From Candidatus Latescibacterota bacterium (GTDB lineage: Bacteria; Latescibacterota; UBA2968; UBA8231), in NCBI GenBank assembly GCA_022825185.1, contig JAJDYK010000184.1:1-8879 (forward strand): a stretch of 8,879 nucleotides of DNA, given 5' to 3'. A program made the position numbers and the translations under genes. This document shows positions 2 through 8,879 of this stretch, one piece after another. Each line of letters starts with the position of its first letter. The stretch's first letter is position 1. Under the pieces are notes generated by a model that made no database searches, was not told the origin of the DNA, and was given only the letters and a program-made list of their open reading frames with translations.

Positions 2-835
2 GTCTTAACTTGGCTCTCCGGCGTCGCAGTAATGACCATCTGGCTGTGGCAGTCTGGCTTGCCGCTGTGGGCGGCCTTTTTGACCCTGATGCTGGCCATC
101 CTTATCTTCGTCGGCTTAACTCGAGTGGTAGTAGAAGGAGGTGTGGCCGCGGCGGTCGGACCAATGATTTCTCCAACGGTCTTAGTTTCGGCTGTCGGCT
201 CTTCGGCGATCGGCCCGGCCGGCATAGTCGGCCTCGCATACACATTCGTGTGGGCGGCGGATATCCGCACCTTTGTCATGGCTTCCTGCGCACACGGCCT
301 CAAGTTGGGTGAGGGACTAGGCCAGCGGCTGCGCCCGCTTTTTTGGTACATGCTGCTGGCGATTGTCGTCAGCATCGTCGGCTCGGTCGCAGCGATTTTG
401 TACCTCGCCTACGAATACGGCGGCATCAACCTCAACGCGTGGTTTTTTGGAGGTGGAACTCGCGCCCCTTTTGATTATATTACCACCAAGTTAAGCGCGC
501 CCACCGAGCCGAATATCGATGGCTGGATTCACACTTTTGTCGGCGGGGGCATCATGGCCCTGCTCATGTGGGCGCGCCAGCAGCTCTTGTGGTGGCCTCT
601 GCATCCCATCGGCTACCCAATTGGTGCCGTATGGCTGATGGACCAGTTGTGGTTTAGTATTGCCATCGCTTGGCTCTTAAAGTTGTTGGCGATGAAATAC
701 GGCGGTCCTGGTCTTTTTCGCCGGGCGCGTCCTTTCTTTTTAGGCCTAATCATAGGCCAGTTTTTCATCGCGGGACTCTGGTTGATTATCGACTTTTTTA
801 CGGGCATGACCGACAATGTGGTCTTCTGGATCTGA
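2..835 (+). CDS. OPT-like polytopic membrane protein, DUF6785/DUF6784 type (5' partial)
   Basis: This is the C-terminal 277 residues of an integral membrane protein. The frame is open back to base 2, so the gene starts outside the window and the ATG at 32 is just an internal Met. Several hydrophobic segments are visible, at about residues 18-40, 54-82, 103-128, 168-188 and 234-257 of the fragment. The segment RVVVEGG after the first of these, the LWWPLHPIGYPIG motif near residues 186-198, and the KYGG...RRARPFFLGLIIG stretch near 222-242 are features I associate with the C-terminal DUF6784 part of DUF6785 proteins, which resemble oligopeptide transporters (OPT). Substrate is unknown; transport of peptides or another small solute is inferred from the resemblance. 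It ends 17 nt before the FtsX/M28-like gene, so the two are probably co-transcribed. The general class (OPT-like membrane protein) is fairly secure; the exact family name is from memory of motifs. Confidence 0.75.
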   Translation, partial: VLTWLSGVAVMTIWLWQSGLPLWAAFLTLMLAILIFVGLTRVVVEGGVAAAVGPMISPTVLVSAVGSSAIGPAGIVGLAYTFVWAADIRTFVMASCAHGLKLGEGLGQRLRPLFWYMLLAIVVSIVGSVAAILYLAYEYGGINLNAWFFGGGTRAPFDYITTKLSAPTEPNIDGWIHTFVGGGIMALLMWARQQLLWWPLHPIGYPIGAVWLMDQLWFSIAIAWLLKLLAMKYGGPGLFRRARPFFLGLIIGQFFIAGLWLIIDFFTGMTDNVVFWI

Positions 836-852: not shown

Positions 853-3800
853 ATGCCTAAGTTCGCGATGCGATGGATGGCCTTCGGCTGGATTTTGGTC
901 GGCGCAGTACCGGCTTGGACCGAAGTCGATTTTGCCGAGTTGGCGCGCACGGCCCCGGTCGAGCGCGTGCAGCAAACGATGGACACCTTTGCTGGCTTGG
1001 GGTCTAGAGTCGCTGGCTATCGAGGTGCCGACCAAGCGGCCCAGATCGTACAGGAGCGCTTCCGCGCTATCGGCCTCGACGACGTCACAGTCCACGAATA
1101 CGATGTTTCTATTCCGGTCGATAAGGGTGGATTTCTGCAAGTAGTTGGCAGCGACGAACAAGTGCCAATCCACGGCCTATGGCCCAATCTCGTCAAAACC
1201 TCGACGCTGCCCGAAGACGGGGTGACCAAGCGCTTGATCGACGCTGGTGCGGGTGAGTACGCGGACATGGACGGCAAGCAAGTCGAAGGGTCCGTGGCCC
1301 TGATGGACTTTAATTCCGGCGACGCTTGGCTCAATGCCGCCTACCTCGGGGCGCAAGCTATCATCTTTATCGAGCCGGACTCCACCGTTTACTTGGAGGG
1401 GGAAAAGAAATTCCTCACCATGCCGCTCGATCTACCGAGGTTCTGGGTCAATCGCCAAGTCGGTCAGCACTTGCGTCGCCAATTGGCGACCGAGGGCGAG
1501 CAGACGCTTCACCTACAGTACCGCATGGATTGGGAGCGGCGTCCCGCTTGGAATATCCTCGGCACGATCCCCGGATACGATCCCTTGCTAAAAGAGGACG
1601 TGATCGTGCTGGAAGCGTACTACGACGCCATGTCCGTGGTGCCAGCCCTTGCCCCAGGTGCCGAGCAAGCCTCCGGCATTACTGCGCTGTTGGAATTGGC
1701 ACGCTATTTCCGCGAAAATCCACCAGCGCGCACGGTCGTATTCCTCGCCACTTCGGCCCACCACTTGGGTTTGCGCGGGATTGATGATTTCATCCAGCGC
1801 TATTTGCGCAAAGAAGAGCCCTTCATCGAGCACATGCTGGTGAGGCGGGTCGTCGATGCTGCACTCGCGCGGAACATGATTGCCCAAGATGGCATCCACT
1901 ACGCCATCGGCGAGGAGGAGTTCGCCGGTAAGGAAGCCCTCGTGCGGGGCGTTGCCGAAGGGCGCACCGACTTGGCCGCGCGCGTTGCCGACGCTGCCCT
2001 CGCCGAAGGGCTGCTGAGCCAAGAAGGAGGCGCACTACACCTCGCCGACGAGCAATTCAAAGATCGCCGCGAACTGGTTGACGAATTGCGCTCGGACGAT
2101 GACTTGCGCCTCGCGCTCTTCAAAACTTGGGTCGATCCCAAAGTCGATTCGCTCGCTGTCAAGCTCTTTATCAGCCTCGACCTTTCGTCGCAAACCGACG
2201 AACTCGGAGTGTGGAATAGCAATACCAGCTTTTACTACAAGCGCTACTTTGCACCCTTCGGCAAAAACTTCATGGGGTATGCGCGCAAGATCAGCCGCGA
2301 GTTGAATTATCAGCGGCGCGATGTGCTGGTCAATGGCATCAGCCCCGAAGGCGGGATGAGTTGGCAGACCTTTGTACCAGGCGAAATATCGGTCAACAGC
2401 GAATTGGTGTTGGCGACCGGTACGCCGGCATTGGCCTTTGTCACTGTCAACGACGCGCGCTTCCTCGTCGATACGCCCTTAGACCGGGCCGAGCACGTCA
2501 ACTACGCCAATCTCGCCAAACAAATCCGGGTGCTCGCTGGCATGTTCGAAATGGCCTTTGCAGACCCAGAGCTTTTCCCGGACTTCAAGATGCGCTTGCG
2601 CGACACGCTGCGCTCGCTGCGCGGTCGGACTATGGTCTTTCCGCGCCGCAGCATCATCCCCGACTTGCCGCGTGCAGACGCCGTAGCCGTGGTGCGCAAC
2701 GGCAAGAAAAAGTCGTATAAAGGGGTGCGCGGCGAGTACTACGAAGTCGTCAATGATAAGGGGGCCTTCTACGTAAATCGGGTGCGGGTCAACAACGTGC
2801 AGATTGAGGGCTACTACATGGACCCGATCACCGGCCGCATCACTTACGCCCCCGACCGCGGCGTGCAAGGCGACGAAAGCTACCCCATGCGGGTCGCCAT
2901 GGACTGGCGCGACAAGCAGTGGATGGTCATCCTCTTCCCCTGCGTGCCCTACAACTTCTTCGACATCGTCGATCCGCGCTATTTGACCAAGCTGTCCAAC
3001 GTACAGGTCTTCGACGAAACGAACGGTCCACCTGTGGAGTACGGTTATACCATCGGCGAAGGCCCCTCGGCCCAAAACGAGCCGGTCGGGGTGCTCTTCG
3101 CACGGCCCGGTTCGCACATCAAGATGGGGTTCGGTGCTGGCCTGCTAGGATTCCGCTCGCTCCTGCTCAACGCCACCAGCGTAACCGACAAGGAAAAGGC
3201 CGAGGGCGAGGGCTTTGAGATCCGCCCCGGTACTTCCTTTGCCCGCACGACCTTCCAAGCCGCCCAAGACATGTGGAATCTCGACGAGTCGCGAATGCGC
3301 GAGTTGCGGAGCTTTGCCATTGAAAACCAGCGCCTCAACGACCTCCACTATCGCGCCGAAGCTGAGCTAGCCCAAGCCTCTGAGGCTGAGACCGAGCAGC
3401 GCTGGGGCGATTTCGTGCGCCACACGCGCGCGGCTTTTGGGCTGGAGTCGCGCGCCTACCCAGACGTCAAATCTACCCAAAACGACGTCATTCAGGGCAT
3501 TATCTTCTTTATGGCCCTCGTCATTCCCTGCGCCTTTTTCACCGAGCGGCTCATTTTTACGGCCGCCACGATCCGCAATCAAATCATCGGATTCGCCGGG
3601 GTTTTTCTGGCGATCTGGATCGTGTTGTGGCTGGTGCATCCGGCCTTTCAGCTATCCAATCCCTTCGTCATCCTGCTCGCTTTCATCATCATCGCGCTGG
3701 CAGTGCTGGTGATGTCGATTATTTCCGGTCGCTTTAACGAGCAGATGAAGAAGCTGCGCACCGAAGTAGCCGTGATCCACGACACGGACGTCAGCCGCTC

Positions 3801-5604
3801 CTCGGCCTCGCTGACGGCCTTCCAGCTCGGGATTTCCAACATGAAGCGGCGCAAGACGCGCACGGTGCTCACTTTCACCACGCTCTTGTTGCTGACCTTC
3901 ACGGTGCTCTCTTTCACCTCCATCCGCACGGGCTTGCGATTCAACCAAATCAGCCGCGACAACGAGGGTCTCTACGAGGGCATCCTCATCCGCAGCAAGG
4001 CGTGGAATCCCATGGAGGATTCAGTCCTCGAATACGCCCGCAGCAATTTCGGCGATCGGGCCGCGGTCGCGCCGCGCAGTTGGTACAGCAACAAGGCCAA
4101 GGCACACATCAAAATAAAACACGGGGAAAAGGCCCATAACGCACTCGGCGTCCTAGGTTTAGCACCCGAAGAGACTCAAGTCACTCGGCTCAGCCAAGCC
4201 CTAGTCGCCGGACGCTGGTTTGAGCCGGGTGAGGACAAGGTCTGTATCCTGCCCATCGACATGATCAAGGAGGCCCATCTCGATGTCGATTTGGCCGACG
4301 TTGGTCAAGCGCAAGTCAGGGTCTTCGGCGACTTATTCACGGTGGTGGGCGTCATCGACTCCAAGCGCATGAAGGACCTCAAAGACCTCGACGACGAGAT
4401 CCTGACGCCAGCCGACTTCGCCGTCACCGGCGGTCAGGCAGTGCAGGAAATAGCCGAGGAAGAACAGCGCGAAAAGCAGGGGCTGGAGGACGCCAAGGTC
4501 GTCATCAAGCCCTTCGTCCACATAGAGCCAGCCAACACCCTGATTATTCCCTACCACACGCTGCGCAACGTCGGCAGCGGCAACCCGTTACAGTCGGTAG
4601 CCGTGCGCTTCCCCGAGGGTAGCGATGTGCGCGGCGAGGTCGAGGAATTCCTCTCGCGCCTCGCGGTAACGCTGTTCGCCGGAGTCAAGGAGGCCGGCGA
4701 TGAATACATCAAGGTGTCGATCTATTCATCGCTGGGCATGACCTCCTTTTCCGGGATGAGCAATTTGTTCATCCCCATGCTGATCGCCTCACTAATCGTG
4801 CTCAACACCATGATGGGCAGCGTGTACGAGCGCTTCCGCGAAATCGGCATCTACTCTTCGGTGGGCCTAGCTCCCGGCCACATCTCATGGCTTTTTATCG
4901 CCGAGAGTTGCGTCTATTCGGTGCTGGGCGTGGTCGCCGGTTATCTCAGCGGCCAAGTAATCGCCAAAGTGCTCATCGAATTCGACCTTTTGGGTGGCTT
5001 CACGCTCAACTATTCCTCGGTGGCCGCGGTGCTCTCCTGTATGCTGGTGATGGCCGTAGTCATGCTCTCGACGATTTATCCGGCGCGCAAGGCTTCGCAA
5101 ATGGCCGTGCCGGACGTGACCCGCAAGTGGAAGCTGCCACCGCCCGACGGCGACCAGTGGGATTTCGAGTTCCCCTTTACGGTCAGCGGCCACGAGGTAT
5201 TGGGCTTGAGCGTATTCCTCATCGGCTACTTCGACTCCTACAGCGAAGAGTCCATCGGCACCTTCTACACCGACGGTGCCCAGCTAAACCGCGAAGAAAC
5301 GCCCAACGGCGAAGGATACATCATCGACATGAATATCTGGTTGGCTCCTTTCGACTTGGGCGTCAGTCAACACGTCACCGTGCGGGCCATGCCAGAGGCC
5401 GAGCACAACATTTACGCGGTCAGCTTACAAATCAAGCGGCTCAGTGGCGAGGATGCCTCGTGGCGGCGGGTCAACCAGCGCTTTATGAACGTCATCCGCA
5501 AACAGTTCCTCATCTGGCGCACGGTGGATGCCGAGGCCAAAGAAGGCTACCGCCAACAGGGCGAGGAAATTCTACAAGGGCTGCGCAGCGAAGTGTCGGC
5601 GTAA
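853..5604 (+). CDS. FtsX/MacB-type permease with extracytoplasmic M28 peptidase-like domain
   Basis: A 1,583-residue membrane protein. Residues 1-22 form a signal peptide (MRW followed by a hydrophobic core). Residues about 30-560 resemble M28 zinc aminopeptidases, but the metal site is degenerate: Y256 replaces the first His, E271-Q272 replace Asp-Asn, H303-H304 replace Glu-Glu, and no His is seen near V539; D258 and D443 remain. Residues 333-422 hold a 45-residue repeat pair. A beta-rich region (~620-800) and a helical stalk (~808-876) lead to membrane segments at about 879-898, 911-930, 938-958, 1003-1025, 1304-1324, 1344-1366 and 1388-1410. The last three carry FtsX hallmarks (NTMMGSVYERFREIGIYSSV; IYPARKAS). 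Between segments 4 and 5 lies a MacB-like periplasmic domain. A ~170-residue tail follows inside the cell. Such permeases normally work with an ABC ATPase, none of which is in the window. Start at 853 chosen over 670, which would overlap the upstream gene by 166 nt and bury the signal peptide. Confidence 0.85.
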   Translation: MPKFAMRWMAFGWILVGAVPAWTEVDFAELARTAPVERVQQTMDTFAGLGSRVAGYRGADQAAQIVQERFRAIGLDDVTVHEYDVSIPVDKGGFLQVVGSDEQVPIHGLWPNLVKTSTLPEDGVTKRLIDAGAGEYADMDGKQVEGSVALMDFNSGDAWLNAAYLGAQAIIFIEPDSTVYLEGEKKFLTMPLDLPRFWVNRQVGQHLRRQLATEGEQTLHLQYRMDWERRPAWNILGTIPGYDPLLKEDVIVLEAYYDAMSVVPALAPGAEQASGITALLELARYFRENPPARTVVFLATSAHHLGLRGIDDFIQRYLRKEEPFIEHMLVRRVVDAALARNMIAQDGIHYAIGEEEFAGKEALVRGVAEGRTDLAARVADAALAEGLLSQEGGALHLADEQFKDRRELVDELRSDDDLRLALFKTWVDPKVDSLAVKLFISLDLSSQTDELGVWNSNTSFYYKRYFAPFGKNFMGYARKISRELNYQRRDVLVNGISPEGGMSWQTFVPGEISVNSELVLATGTPALAFVTVNDARFLVDTPLDRAEHVNYANLAKQIRVLAGMFEMAFADPELFPDFKMRLRDTLRSLRGRTMVFPRRSIIPDLPRADAVAVVRNGKKKSYKGVRGEYYEVVNDKGAFYVNRVRVNNVQIEGYYMDPITGRITYAPDRGVQGDESYPMRVAMDWRDKQWMVILFPCVPYNFFDIVDPRYLTKLSNVQVFDETNGPPVEYGYTIGEGPSAQNEPVGVLFARPGSHIKMGFGAGLLGFRSLLLNATSVTDKEKAEGEGFEIRPGTSFARTTFQAAQDMWNLDESRMRELRSFAIENQRLNDLHYRAEAELAQASEAETEQRWGDFVRHTRAAFGLESRAYPDVKSTQNDVIQGIIFFMALVIPCAFFTERLIFTAATIRNQIIGFAGVFLAIWIVLWLVHPAFQLSNPFVILLAFIIIALAVLVMSIISGRFNEQMKKLRTEVAVIHDTDVSRSSASLTAFQLGISNMKRRKTRTVLTFTTLLLLTFTVLSFTSIRTGLRFNQISRDNEGLYEGILIRSKAWNPMEDSVLEYARSNFGDRAAVAPRSWYSNKAKAHIKIKHGEKAHNALGVLGLAPEETQVTRLSQALVAGRWFEPGEDKVCILPIDMIKEAHLDVDLADVGQAQVRVFGDLFTVVGVIDSKRMKDLKDLDDEILTPADFAVTGGQAVQEIAEEEQREKQGLEDAKVVIKPFVHIEPANTLIIPYHTLRNVGSGNPLQSVAVRFPEGSDVRGEVEEFLSRLAVTLFAGVKEAGDEYIKVSIYSSLGMTSFSGMSNLFIPMLIASLIVLNTMMGSVYERFREIGIYSSVGLAPGHISWLFIAESCVYSVLGVVAGYLSGQVIAKVLIEFDLLGGFTLNYSSVAAVLSCMLVMAVVMLSTIYPARKASQMAVPDVTRKWKLPPPDGDQWDFEFPFTVSGHEVLGLSVFLIGYFDSYSEESIGTFYTDGAQLNREETPNGEGYIIDMNIWLAPFDLGVSQHVTVRAMPEAEHNIYAVSLQIKRLSGEDASWRRVNQRFMNVIRKQFLIWRTVDAEAKEGYRQQGEEILQGLRSEVSA
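1600..2520 (+). other. Degenerate M28-type metal site (protein domain feature)
   Basis: Sequence landmarks of the M28 fold are in the right order. AYYD at residues 255-258 stands where the family has H-x-D. PGAEQASG (268-275) stands where PGA-DN-SG is usual. SAHHLGLRG (301-309) stands where AEE.GL.G is usual, and SLDL (441-444) matches the strand carrying the fourth ligand. FLVDTPLD (537-544) lies where the last His ligand of the HT..D motif should be. Compared with Aeromonas aminopeptidase (ligands His97, Asp117, Glu152, Asp179, His256, base Glu151), only the Asp179 equivalent (D443) is clearly kept as a ligand. Hydrolysis by the usual mechanism is therefore unlikely; ligand binding or a structural role is inferred. 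The alignment was made by eye, so the last position is the least certain. Confidence 0.65.
1849..2118 (+). repeat. Two 45-residue tandem protein repeats inside the M28-like domain
   Basis: Residues 333-377 (1849-1983) and 378-422 (1984-2118) align without gaps at the start: VVDAALARNMIAQDG against VADAALAEGLLSQEG, followed by E.F and then L-V at matching positions. About 12 of 45 positions are identical by eye, with many conservative changes. The pair is charged and probably helical, and it sits between the SAHH motif and the strand with D443, so it looks like an insertion in a surface loop of the peptidase fold. The DNA has diverged, so this is an old duplication rather than a recent one. 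Confidence 0.6.
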
Positions 5605-5617: not shown

Positions 5618-8044
5618 GTGCTCGGAAGCAAAAACAGAAACCCGAACCAAGAGATCGAAGAATATCGGGACTTAATGCAGGTCCCGGACCGCTTCGAGAA
5701 CGGCTTTACGATCAAGGCCATCCTCGGCGTGCTCTTCGTCGCCTTCATCATGGTGCCGGGCAACATGTACTTGAGCCTGATGATCGGCGGCTCTTTGGGA
5801 GCGGCGGCCGAGTGGGTGACCATCATCCTCTTCGCCGAAATCACCAAGCGTTCCTTTTCTTCGCTACGGCGCCAAGAAGTCTATGTGCTGTTTTACGTGG
5901 CCGGCTCGCTGATTGCCGCTGAGACTGGTGCCTTTGAAGGCTTGCTCTACAACCAGTACTTAGTGCAATCGCCAGCGGCCAAGCAGTTTGGCATCGCCAA
6001 GCTGATCCCCGGTTGGGTGGCACCGCAGCCCGACTCCTCCGCCATCATCGAACGGACCTTCCTGCACTCGGATTGGGCGATGCCGATCGTACTCCTAGTC
6101 TTGGGGATGATCATCTGGCGCATCAACTGGTTCACCATGTCGTACGCACTCTTCCGGCTCACCTCCGACTACGAGCGCCTGCCCTTTCCCTTCGCGCCCG
6201 TAAACGCCCAAGGCGCTACGGCACTGGCCGAGACCACCCAAGGGGTTGAGACGTGGCGCTGGCGGGTATTTTCGGCCGGGGCGATGATCGGTTTGGTCTT
6301 TGGCACAATCTACGTGGCCTTGCCGGCGATTACTGGCGCGCTGTTGACTGAGCCGATCCAACTCATACCTATTCCCTTTGTCGATTTCACCCAAGTCACT
6401 GGCAATTTTATCCCGGCCACTCCGCTGGGATTTACCGCGCACTTGGGACCGATCTTCGTCGGTCTAGTGGTGCCGTTCTGGGGCGTGGTTGGCACCTTCC
6501 TCGGTCTAGTCGCCGCCGCCGTTGCCAATCCGCTGCTCTATACCTGGACGCCTTCGTGGCGCGAGGAGCCGTACCTGAACTTGTGGCAGCAAGGCATGGG
6601 CACGATCGAGACCTATTTCGTCAACTACGTCGATTTCTGGATGAGTTTCGGCCTCGGCACTACCTTCGCCATCGCCGCCATCGGCATCTATCAGATAGTT
6701 CAGAGCGTGCGCAAGGCTAGGGCTAACAACGGCAACGGGAATGATAGCAGTCCCAAGAGCGGCTTCGCCACCCCTGCCGGCCGCGGCGATTTCCCCATCT
6801 GGGTGGCGTTGGCACTATACGCCTTGGCCACGGCTGGCCTGATCGGCATCGCCGCTTGGCTGCTGCCGGGCATTGCCCAATTTATATGGTTCTTCCTCTT
6901 CTTTGGTTTCGTATTCACGCCCTTTCAGTCGTTTGTCAACGCTCGCCTAGTCGGGATGGTAGGACAGACTGTGGACGTTCCCTTCGTGCGCGAGGCTACG
7001 ATTATTCTCTCTGGGTATCGCGGTGTTGACATCTGGTTCATTCCGTTTCCCTTGGGCAACTACGGTGCCCAGACCCAGAAGTTCCGCGAAATCGAATTGA
7101 CCGGCACCCAGTTTACCAGCATCATCCGCGCCGAGATTTTCATGGTACCCATTGTGCTCTTTACCAGTTTTCTCTACGGCTCCTATATCTGGAAACTGGC
7201 ACCGATCCCGTCGGCTTCCTACCCCTATGCCCAGCTCATGTGGCGTCTGCGCGCCTACCAGCAATGTCTTTTTATCACCGGCACCATGCGCAGCGAACTG
7301 GCCATAGACAACGATCAGGCGGGATGGACTCCAGCTAACCTGATCGAAAACGAATGGTGGTACTGGCGAGTGCGGCTAGTGGATCAGGAGTGGCTAGACT
7401 CCAACGGCAAGCGCGGTCAAGTCGGCCCGTGGATGCCAACCCAAGTTTTCTACTCGTACTTTGATCAGGGAGCACCCGACATTGTCGCCGAGCGCTATCT
7501 GCGCGATGAGCAGCTAGCCGAAGAGGAAGTTGTCGAGGGCCTGCCGGCGATTGCGCCACTGGGGCCAGCGATGGACACCGTCATTCGCGAACCCCGCCCA
7601 ACCCTCGAAGTGAAGGTCGAACGAGCCGTGCCAGCGGGGTGGTCTTTCTACTTTGAGGTCGATACCGATCCGCTCTTTACCAGCTCCTGGATCCAGCGCT
7701 CCACCGATGTGCCTTGGCTCTTTAGGGCGCTGAAACTTGAGGTCATCGCCCTTGGTGCCGGCTTCGGGCTGGTGAGCTTCATTCTGCTCTCCATACTCGG
7801 GCTGCCGATCCTGCTGATCTTTGGCTTCGTGCGCTCGCTGACGATTCTGCCGCACTTGGTCGTCACCGAGATCATCGGCGCGCTCTTGGCACGCTACTAC
7901 TTTTGGAACAAGTACGGGCGGCAGGAGTGGCGGCAGTTTGCCCCGGTTCTGGCGGTGGGCTTCGCCTGCGGCATGGCGCTGATGGGGATGGCGTCGGTGG
8001 GGATCGCCCTAATCCAGAAATCGGTCTCCGTGCTGATCTTCTAG
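5618..8044 (+). CDS. OPT-like putative peptide transporter with large soluble insert
   Basis: An 808-residue polytopic membrane protein, starting with GTG after a strong ribosome binding site. An N-terminal soluble segment of ~30 residues is followed by hydrophobic segments at about 33-56, 60-78, 87-104, 153-175, 218-242, 275-306, 340-362, 392-416, 419-437, 502-526, 705-726, 727-745 and 774-800. The PGNMYLSLMIGGSLG motif (47-61), LPFPFAPVNAQGATAL (188-203) and FREIELTGTQF (489-499) fit the oligopeptide transporter (OPT) superfamily; members move peptides or metal chelates, usually with protons. An Asn/Gly/Ser-rich linker (369-382) separates two halves. Residues ~552-702 form a soluble insert with the fibronectin-like strands WWYWRVRLVD (580-589) and FYFEVDTDPLF (677-687). 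The C-terminal pattern (KYG, then R..P and a Gly-rich helix) resembles the end of the first gene, suggesting distant kinship. Substrate is unknown. Confidence 0.8.
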   Translation: MLGSKNRNPNQEIEEYRDLMQVPDRFENGFTIKAILGVLFVAFIMVPGNMYLSLMIGGSLGAAAEWVTIILFAEITKRSFSSLRRQEVYVLFYVAGSLIAAETGAFEGLLYNQYLVQSPAAKQFGIAKLIPGWVAPQPDSSAIIERTFLHSDWAMPIVLLVLGMIIWRINWFTMSYALFRLTSDYERLPFPFAPVNAQGATALAETTQGVETWRWRVFSAGAMIGLVFGTIYVALPAITGALLTEPIQLIPIPFVDFTQVTGNFIPATPLGFTAHLGPIFVGLVVPFWGVVGTFLGLVAAAVANPLLYTWTPSWREEPYLNLWQQGMGTIETYFVNYVDFWMSFGLGTTFAIAAIGIYQIVQSVRKARANNGNGNDSSPKSGFATPAGRGDFPIWVALALYALATAGLIGIAAWLLPGIAQFIWFFLFFGFVFTPFQSFVNARLVGMVGQTVDVPFVREATIILSGYRGVDIWFIPFPLGNYGAQTQKFREIELTGTQFTSIIRAEIFMVPIVLFTSFLYGSYIWKLAPIPSASYPYAQLMWRLRAYQQCLFITGTMRSELAIDNDQAGWTPANLIENEWWYWRVRLVDQEWLDSNGKRGQVGPWMPTQVFYSYFDQGAPDIVAERYLRDEQLAEEEVVEGLPAIAPLGPAMDTVIREPRPTLEVKVERAVPAGWSFYFEVDTDPLFTSSWIQRSTDVPWLFRALKLEVIALGAGFGLVSFILLSILGLPILLIFGFVRSLTILPHLVVTEIIGALLARYYFWNKYGRQEWRQFAPVLAVGFACGMALMGMASVGIALIQKSVSVLIF
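7271..7723 (+). other. Soluble beta-rich insert in the OPT-like protein
   Basis: Residues about 552-702 lack membrane-length hydrophobic runs and sit between two membrane segments. WWYWRVRLVD followed by G-Q-V-G-P-W (580-605) matches the YYWRVRA.D..G..G.W signature of extracellular fibronectin III-like sandwiches. FYFEVDTDPLFTS.WIQRS (677-694) matches the usual strand that precedes that signature, but here it comes after it. An acidic helix (629-640) lies between them. Fibronectin-like identity and an extracytoplasmic location are inferences. Confidence 0.45.
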
Positions 8045-8045
8045 C

Positions 8046-8879
8046 ATGAATGATCGGGTGGATTTCGCTTGGCAAGGGCTGCGGTTGTCCGTGCCCGACG
8101 ATTGGAACCTCGGCCGGGTTGACGGGGACTTTGAAAAGGGCTATGCCCGCCTCGACGACGCCGAGATCGTGCGCGCCGAGATCGAATGGCGGCGGCTCAA
8201 AGGCCGCGGCGAGGCCCTGCGCCTGACCGAGTTGGTAGATCGCTATCTAACCAACCTGCAAAAGAAGGCCCAAAAGGTCGATGCTCCCTTTGAGGTTCAG
8301 CGCCGCGCCCGATTCCTCAAGAACAAAAAATTCCTCGAAGGCCGCGAATACGAGGTCTTCATCTGGGAGGCCGACTTCCGGGCCTACAACCTAGCACTCG
8401 CCTTGAAGTCCGGGCGGGTAGTGCTCCTGCGAGTGCTGGCCAAGCTAGACGAGTTTTTGCCCGAGCAAGCCGAGGCCGTGTTCAGTTCGCTCGTCGATCA
8501 AGAAGGCGAGGATGCGTATCTGTGGAGCGTGTACGGCTTGCGGTTTTTCGCGCCCAGCGATCTCAAGCTACAAAGCCATTCCCTCAAGTCGGGCCACATC
8601 GAGCTAGAGTTCTCCCTCGGCAAACAAGTTCTAAAGGTGCATCGGTTGAGCATGGCCCGGATTATGCTCAAAGACGCGCACATTCAAGACTGGTATCCGG
8701 TTTTCTTTAAAAAGCAACTGCGCGACTTCGTGGTCGATATTACTCCAGAAGCCGTGCAGGAACACGAGGGCATTCGCGTCGAAGGGCGACCGCGCAGCCG
8801 TTGGCGTCAGCTACTGCGTCCCCTGCCCTTTATGAACCCGAGGCCGCGCCTGTATATGCGGGGGCGCGTCTGGCGCGAT
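8046..8879 (+). CDS. Unassigned soluble protein with two similar segments (3' partial)
   Basis: The frame is open from the ATG at 8046 to the end of the window, giving 278 residues with the C-terminus missing. It begins 1 nt after the stop of the OPT-like gene and has no clear Shine-Dalgarno, so it is probably made by translational coupling. No signal peptide or membrane segment is seen, so a cytoplasmic location is likely. Residues 9-36 (W..GLRLSVPDDWNL, then G-Y-A-R-L) resemble residues 160-188 (W..YGLRFFAPSDLKL, then G-H-I-E-L), pointing to two copies of one domain. The first copy runs to about 150, with a strand/helix pattern ending in a helix and SSLV, as in Mog1/PsbP-like folds; that fold guess is tentative. 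The end (244-278) is Arg/Pro-rich. I do not recognise the family. Its place in the operon suggests a cytoplasmic partner of the transport proteins. Confidence 0.75.
   Translation, partial: MNDRVDFAWQGLRLSVPDDWNLGRVDGDFEKGYARLDDAEIVRAEIEWRRLKGRGEALRLTELVDRYLTNLQKKAQKVDAPFEVQRRARFLKNKKFLEGREYEVFIWEADFRAYNLALALKSGRVVLLRVLAKLDEFLPEQAEAVFSSLVDQEGEDAYLWSVYGLRFFAPSDLKLQSHSLKSGHIELEFSLGKQVLKVHRLSMARIMLKDAHIQDWYPVFFKKQLRDFVVDITPEAVQEHEGIRVEGRPRSRWRQLLRPLPFMNPRPRLYMRGRVWRD

Follow-up and report, generated by a model that had tools for sequence, protein, structure and literature searches.

A predicted M28 aminopeptidase fold with an altered, conserved centre on a type VII ABC permease of Latescibacterota

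Results

Domain layout of the M28-fold permease

The DNA analyzed here, referred to as the window, is an 8,879-nucleotide stretch of a Candidatus Latescibacterota genome (contig JAJDYK010000184.1, assembly GCA_022825185.1). Its four plus-strand genes are part of a tight operon, and the gene under study encodes a 1583-residue protein in which a peptidase-like ectodomain precedes a permease of the ATP-binding cassette (ABC) class. The gene and its parts are as follows.

853..5604, plus strand: M28-fold/FtsX permease, 1583 residues, ATG start (open reading frame, Pfam)
922..2562, plus strand: residues 24-570, M28 fold with PA-type insertion (AlphaFold, Foldseek and VIA matches to M28 enzymes)
1825..2142, plus strand: residues 325-430, an insertion of about 100 residues in the window's branch, absent from the paralogues aligned
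2563..3486, plus strand: residues 571-878, second ectodomain part, modeled with confidence by AlphaFold and barely covered by the matches to M28 enzymes
3487..3723, plus strand: residues 879-957, three hydrophobic segments N-terminal of the FtsX module (hydropathy)
3805..5127, plus strand: residues 985-1425, permease module of the MacB/FtsX type, containing four hydrophobic stretches (Pfam, structure matches, hydropathy)

A preliminary description of this DNA had placed the landmarks of the M28 fold in order, which was borne out by Pfam (Peptidase_M28 at residues 234-318, E = 2e-9), by the AlphaFold model, and by Foldseek and VIA matches. The same Pfam model matched 10 of 14 family members scanned. 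Residues 24-885 were modeled with a mean predicted local distance difference test score (pLDDT) of 93.4, and the predicted strands and helices sit where the M28 fold requires them; in this model, the fold is intact. To the eye, the insertion at residues 325-430 resembles a duplicated unit of about 45 residues (VVDAALARNMIAQDG / VADAALAEGLLSQEG), and one helix-strand order occurs twice in the model. One of two Poribacteria relatives scanned (L053, 2384 residues) carries a LysM domain in its ectodomain (residues 257-281, 2.3e-9), a possible hint of contact with the cell wall.

In the C-terminal half, Pfam detected MacB_PCD at residues 1004-1190 (2.1e-7) and FtsX at 1306-1417 (3e-15); among the 14 members scanned, FtsX was found in all and MacB_PCD in 8. 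The hydrophobic stretches of the module lie at residues 1006-1024, 1299-1317, 1344-1375 and 1390-1408, and the sequence YERFREIG after the second FtsX helix resembles the ATPase-contacting loop of this permease class. Solved structures matched by sequence include MacB, LolC and YtrF. An FtsX-type C-terminal module with a MacB-like periplasmic core is the architecture of type VII ABC permeases, and from its sequence the protein is predicted to be a permease of this type (MacB/LolC/FtsX) with an M28 aminopeptidase fold outside the membrane.

Substitution and conservation of the M28 centre

M28 aminopeptidases (6hc6, 2ek8, 1amp) use the ligand set H, D, E, D, H and a Glu as the general base. The corresponding columns were read from a 224-row alignment, composed of the window protein, ten locus proteins and the full set of 213 proteins listed in two initial homologue searches (the best 120 of 552 and the best 120 of 215 matches, with about 8000 candidates scored in each). 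Counts below refer to these rows.

1618..1620, plus strand: residue 256, canonical first ligand His, here Tyr (Y 181, H 35, F 8 of 224)
1624..1626, plus strand: D258, retained as in canonical M28 (224/224)
1663..1665, plus strand: E271, at the canonical bridging Asp (Glu 213/224)
1759..1761, plus strand: H303, at the canonical general-base Glu (His 224/224)
1762..1764, plus strand: H304, at the canonical ligand Glu (H 119, F 95, Y 6, G 2, L 1, C 1 of 224)
2179..2181, plus strand: D443, canonical ligand Asp, retained (224/224)
2470..2472, plus strand: D540 in a VDTPLD loop, at the canonical last ligand His (Asp 220/224)

The residues named in the preliminary description (Y256, D258, E271, H303, H304 and D443) were all found in open reading frame 853-5604, and D258 and D443 stay, as it had said, without exception. 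Of the canonical di-zinc ligands only the fourth (D443) is retained, together with the helper D258, and the general-base Glu is absent from every row. The last ligand His is missing, as described; this is not a mere loss, the column being occupied by a nearly invariant Asp. The proposed metal motif H303-H304 was unsupported because residue 304 varies: 105 of the 224 rows have Phe, Tyr, Gly, Leu or Cys there, and the two histidines were rejected as a conserved pair. In the alignment, E271/H303/D443/D540 is a more telling set than the His pair, and the canonical di-zinc centre is replaced by a conserved set of Y/H/F256, D258, E271, H303, H/F/Y304, D443 and D540.

Several further residues of the ectodomain are fixed. 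Y257 and D544 are present in all rows, as is R536, which lies four residues N-terminal of D540. Of 822 ectodomain columns scored, 15 are fully invariant, and 8 of these fall within the 53 columns of the M28 motifs, where 0.97 would be expected, an enrichment that is descriptive only because the rows are related. The conservation of the altered residues and this concentration of invariant columns agree with the earlier view that the change was selected; decay of the site was rejected, and random variation among homologues was not seen at most altered positions. E271 and D540 are lost jointly in three related proteins (P0133, P0135 and P0167).

A third search, with the head alone as query, returned 92 proteins: P0104, 75 new family rows and 16 generic M28 proteins. 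Family rows reached E = 6.3e-52, followed by a sharp drop, and generic M28 proteins appeared only from E = 8.7e-15 and weaker. In 14 of the 16 generic proteins the eight columns read H-D-D-E-E-D-H-D, and column 540 is His in 15 of 16, versus Asp in 220 of the 224 family rows. Among the new rows (P0214-P0288), the 37 with all eight columns filled have H303 in 37, D443 in 36, D540 in 35 and E271 in 36. One row (P0285) has Ser at position 256, and three (P0249, P0279 and P0281) seem to be truncated or frame-shifted and were left out as possible intermediates; no clear intermediate between the family and canonical M28 was found among the odd family rows checked.

The minimum numbers of changes were counted on a 78-row tree of the permease half (quick search, midpoint-drawn root, 24 open forks): none for H303 or D443, at least three for H304, four each for H256 and E271, and two for D540. 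The four changes to His at position 256 are scattered tips among Tyr, so that this His was rejected as a simple relic of the ancestral ligand, a conclusion that is not firm on a quick tree.

Distribution of the gene and co-occurrence with DUF6785

In the nearest genome (G001) this gene recurs at 99% identity, alongside six paralogues at 37-47%. Named relatives are metagenome assemblies, mostly labeled Latescibacterota, Latescibacteria or Gemmatimonadetes/Gemmatimonadota, with three Poribacteria and one Armatimonadota. Six plasmid records gave partial generic matches, none covering 80%.

We searched 64 genomes of the phylum of G001, scoring at most eight candidates per genome. All 64 had a match at E = 1e-3, and 59 had one at 3.1e-59 or better. 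In the others (G007-G010 and G015) the best match was only 2.9e-12 or worse, and these matches were taken as generic M28 or FtsX. DUF6785, the family of the gene upstream in the window, occurs in 59 of the 64 genomes and is absent from exactly G007-G010 and G015; these count as at most two independent absences because G007-G010 are one family and G015 is 67% complete. None of 14 control genomes contained DUF6785. The family is hugely expanded, with 49 matches in the 6.5-Mb genome G039, and its copies far outnumber the permease gene, so most DUF6785 proteins are not paired with the permease.

Cassette neighbors and the ATPase

The remaining genes of the window are listed below. No RNA family was found in the window at the gathering cut-off.

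2..835, plus strand: DUF6785/DUF6784 membrane protein, C-terminal 277 residues, start preceding the window (Pfam DUF6784 1.8e-31, DUF6785 1.9e-23); 651 residues in a full-length orthologue
5618..8044, plus strand: 808-residue protein with multiple transmembrane segments, distant relative of the upstream DUF6785 protein (hhalign)
8046..8879, plus strand: first 278 residues of a cassette protein of about 330 residues, without family match (open reading frame, Pfam)

Cassettes were compared across 20 loci, counting only those with enough flanking sequence. Of the 17 loci with at least 1 kb of upstream sequence, 13 have the DUF6785 gene there (it is missing in L046, L053, L054 and L056), the 808-residue relative lies downstream in all 17 with room, and the protein of about 330 residues is present in all 16 with room. 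The latter is followed in 16 of 16 loci with room by a PqqD-like gene (Pfam PqqD 1.5e-10 and 4.8e-13 in the two scanned), for example at L011:17794-18240, just past the window, and at L053:20144-20605. PqqD-like proteins have the recognition fold for ribosomally synthesized and post-translationally modified peptides (RiPPs), and related NCBIfam names are those of peptide chaperones in other systems. At L040:8031-9898, the upstream DUF6785 gene does not form one frame but several that overlap, which may reflect a broken gene or sequencing errors.

The association with DUF6785 extends to gene fusion. In five of the six G001 paralogues a DUF6785 gene is adjoining or fused (L017 is without), and L014 is a single 2088-residue frame with FtsX followed by DUF6785/6784; P0126, P0135 and P0167 carry the same domains. 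The 808-residue protein had no Pfam match and aligned to the upstream DUF6785 protein with an hhalign probability of 93.2 (E = 2.9e-7, 182 columns). The oligopeptide transporter (OPT) model TIGR00728 gave sub-threshold matches in 3 of 14 members of its family (best 2.1e-4), not including the window's own protein, whose predicted structure had a mean pLDDT of 41.3. One of 11 scanned relatives of this protein has a PDZ domain (PDZ_6, 2.3e-11).

An ABC ATPase is the next cassette gene in all three Poribacteria loci. For the two scanned, LolD was the closest model (235.5 and 237.4 bits, under the equivalog cut-off of 307.75), and the third resembles them. All five genomes searched have LolD-like genes at other places.

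Discussion

The head is very probably not a canonical di-zinc peptidase. That it serves instead as the ligand-handling head of a type VII ABC machine has, in our estimate, about an even chance. Type VII ABC proteins are reported to act outside the membrane instead of moving substrates across it (PMC5985334, PMC12646458). The preliminary description proposed that the domain binds or senses something and thereby drives the permease, which would fit the predicted architecture. The former substrate cleft, probably no longer that of a two-zinc aminopeptidase, would bind a ligand, which might be a peptide or some other molecule of the envelope. A LolD-like ATPase, whose gene belongs to the cassette in Poribacteria and which presumably acts in trans in the window's lineage, would move the permease by mechanotransmission, and this motion would open and close the head and pass the ligand or a signal to the cassette-encoded DUF6785-type membrane proteins. 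That the ligand is a peptide is a doubtful proposition, suggested by the history of the fold, the PqqD-like gene and the faint OPT resemblance of the neighbor, each a weak hint.

Both halves have known counterparts. BSAP/YwaD (6hc6), the Aneurinibacillus enzyme (2ek8) and the Aeromonas aminopeptidase (1amp) have the set H, D, E, D, H, whereas here it reads Y, E, H, D, D with His in the place of the base, in a domain fused to a permease. MacB, LolC/E, FtsX and YtrF share the FtsX and MacB_PCD domains; the matched type VII permeases lack the M28 head, and here three extra hydrophobic segments come before the FtsX module. The transferrin receptor and nicalin are not known to act as peptidases. 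Together with GPAA1 (PMC7522609), they are likewise membrane proteins whose M28 fold has a changed centre, but they are eukaryotic, are not ABC permeases and show other substitutions. Glutaminyl cyclases have the M28 fold and one zinc with all five canonical positions kept (PMC7522609), whereas four of the five differ here, with E, H/F/Y and D at 271, 304 and 540.

Several observations weigh against a ligand-handling head of a type VII ABC machine. E271, H303, D443 and D540 could well hold a metal, and in the window's close relatives they are kept as strictly as in an enzyme. The Aeromonas aminopeptidase mutant E151H is called "functional" in the title of its report, so replacing the base Glu by His does not by itself have to abolish activity. 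Outside the three Poribacteria loci, a scan of 24 loci for a simple ATPase motif found none. The main rival is an active enzyme with a rebuilt, probably mononuclear metal centre, in which E271, D443, D540 and H303 would bind one metal near the old second site or, alternatively, H303 would act as the base. Its reaction, on a peptide or envelope substrate, would be hydrolysis or group transfer under the gating control of the ABC cycle. The near-invariance of these four residues and the joint loss of E271 and D540 speak for it, as do the E151H title and the single-zinc and changed M28 relatives on record, including GPAA1 with Pro at site 1 (PMC7522609). A type VII ABC permease paired with a hydrolase also has a precedent in YbbAP-TesA (PMC12646458), although TesA, a GDSL esterase, is a protein of its own and has an active site, whereas the fold here is a fused, altered M28. 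Even so, we consider a rebuilt enzyme a tentative and somewhat unlikely reading: the ligand types at four of the five canonical places are unlike those of all 16 generic M28 proteins compared, and the invariant R536 near D540 might fill the site without a metal.

The M28 fold of the transferrin receptor is used for binding a partner protein, and the head could likewise be an inert scaffold, kept just to bind partner proteins and with no role for the old pocket. This is quite improbable, as the former catalytic motifs hold 8 of the 15 invariant ectodomain columns, a degree of constraint not required of a pocket without use. An ordinary M28 peptidase whose normal H/D/E/D/H site is formed by other residues and hidden by misalignment can be given hardly any credence: one of two alignment modes with two canonical M28 control proteins of G001 put column 540 in the wrong place, and in both the row L058 was strained near column 443, but there are hardly any gaps in the motifs around 256-258, 271 and 303-304, no such site appears at the aligned positions, the predicted strands and helices are where the fold requires them, and the local mode and the alignment with 16 generic M28 proteins both place His at column 540, the latter leading us to reject it.

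In the literature searched, with preprints and most subscription journals outside its scope, DUF6785 appears in no paper, and no title or abstract opening among the papers listed describes a fusion of an M28 domain to an ABC permease. In this protein a peptidase fold and a mechanotransmission ABC permease, each well known by itself, are combined, and it gives DUF6785 a first candidate partner through fusion, cassette and co-occurrence. The boldest reading is that of a new M28-fold metallo-centre (Glu/His/Asp/Asp, one metal) in a mechanically driven ABC head that would process or transfer an envelope substrate with DUF6785-class membrane proteins; we think it unlikely, and if true it would be an ATP-gated, membrane-anchored enzyme system of a kind that none of the papers listed describes. 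The few conserved residues make the choice between a pseudo-enzyme and a new enzyme directly testable. In this family, a catalytic centre appears to have been rewritten and then frozen, both across most genomes of one phylum and in representatives of two or more others; one genome has seven copies.
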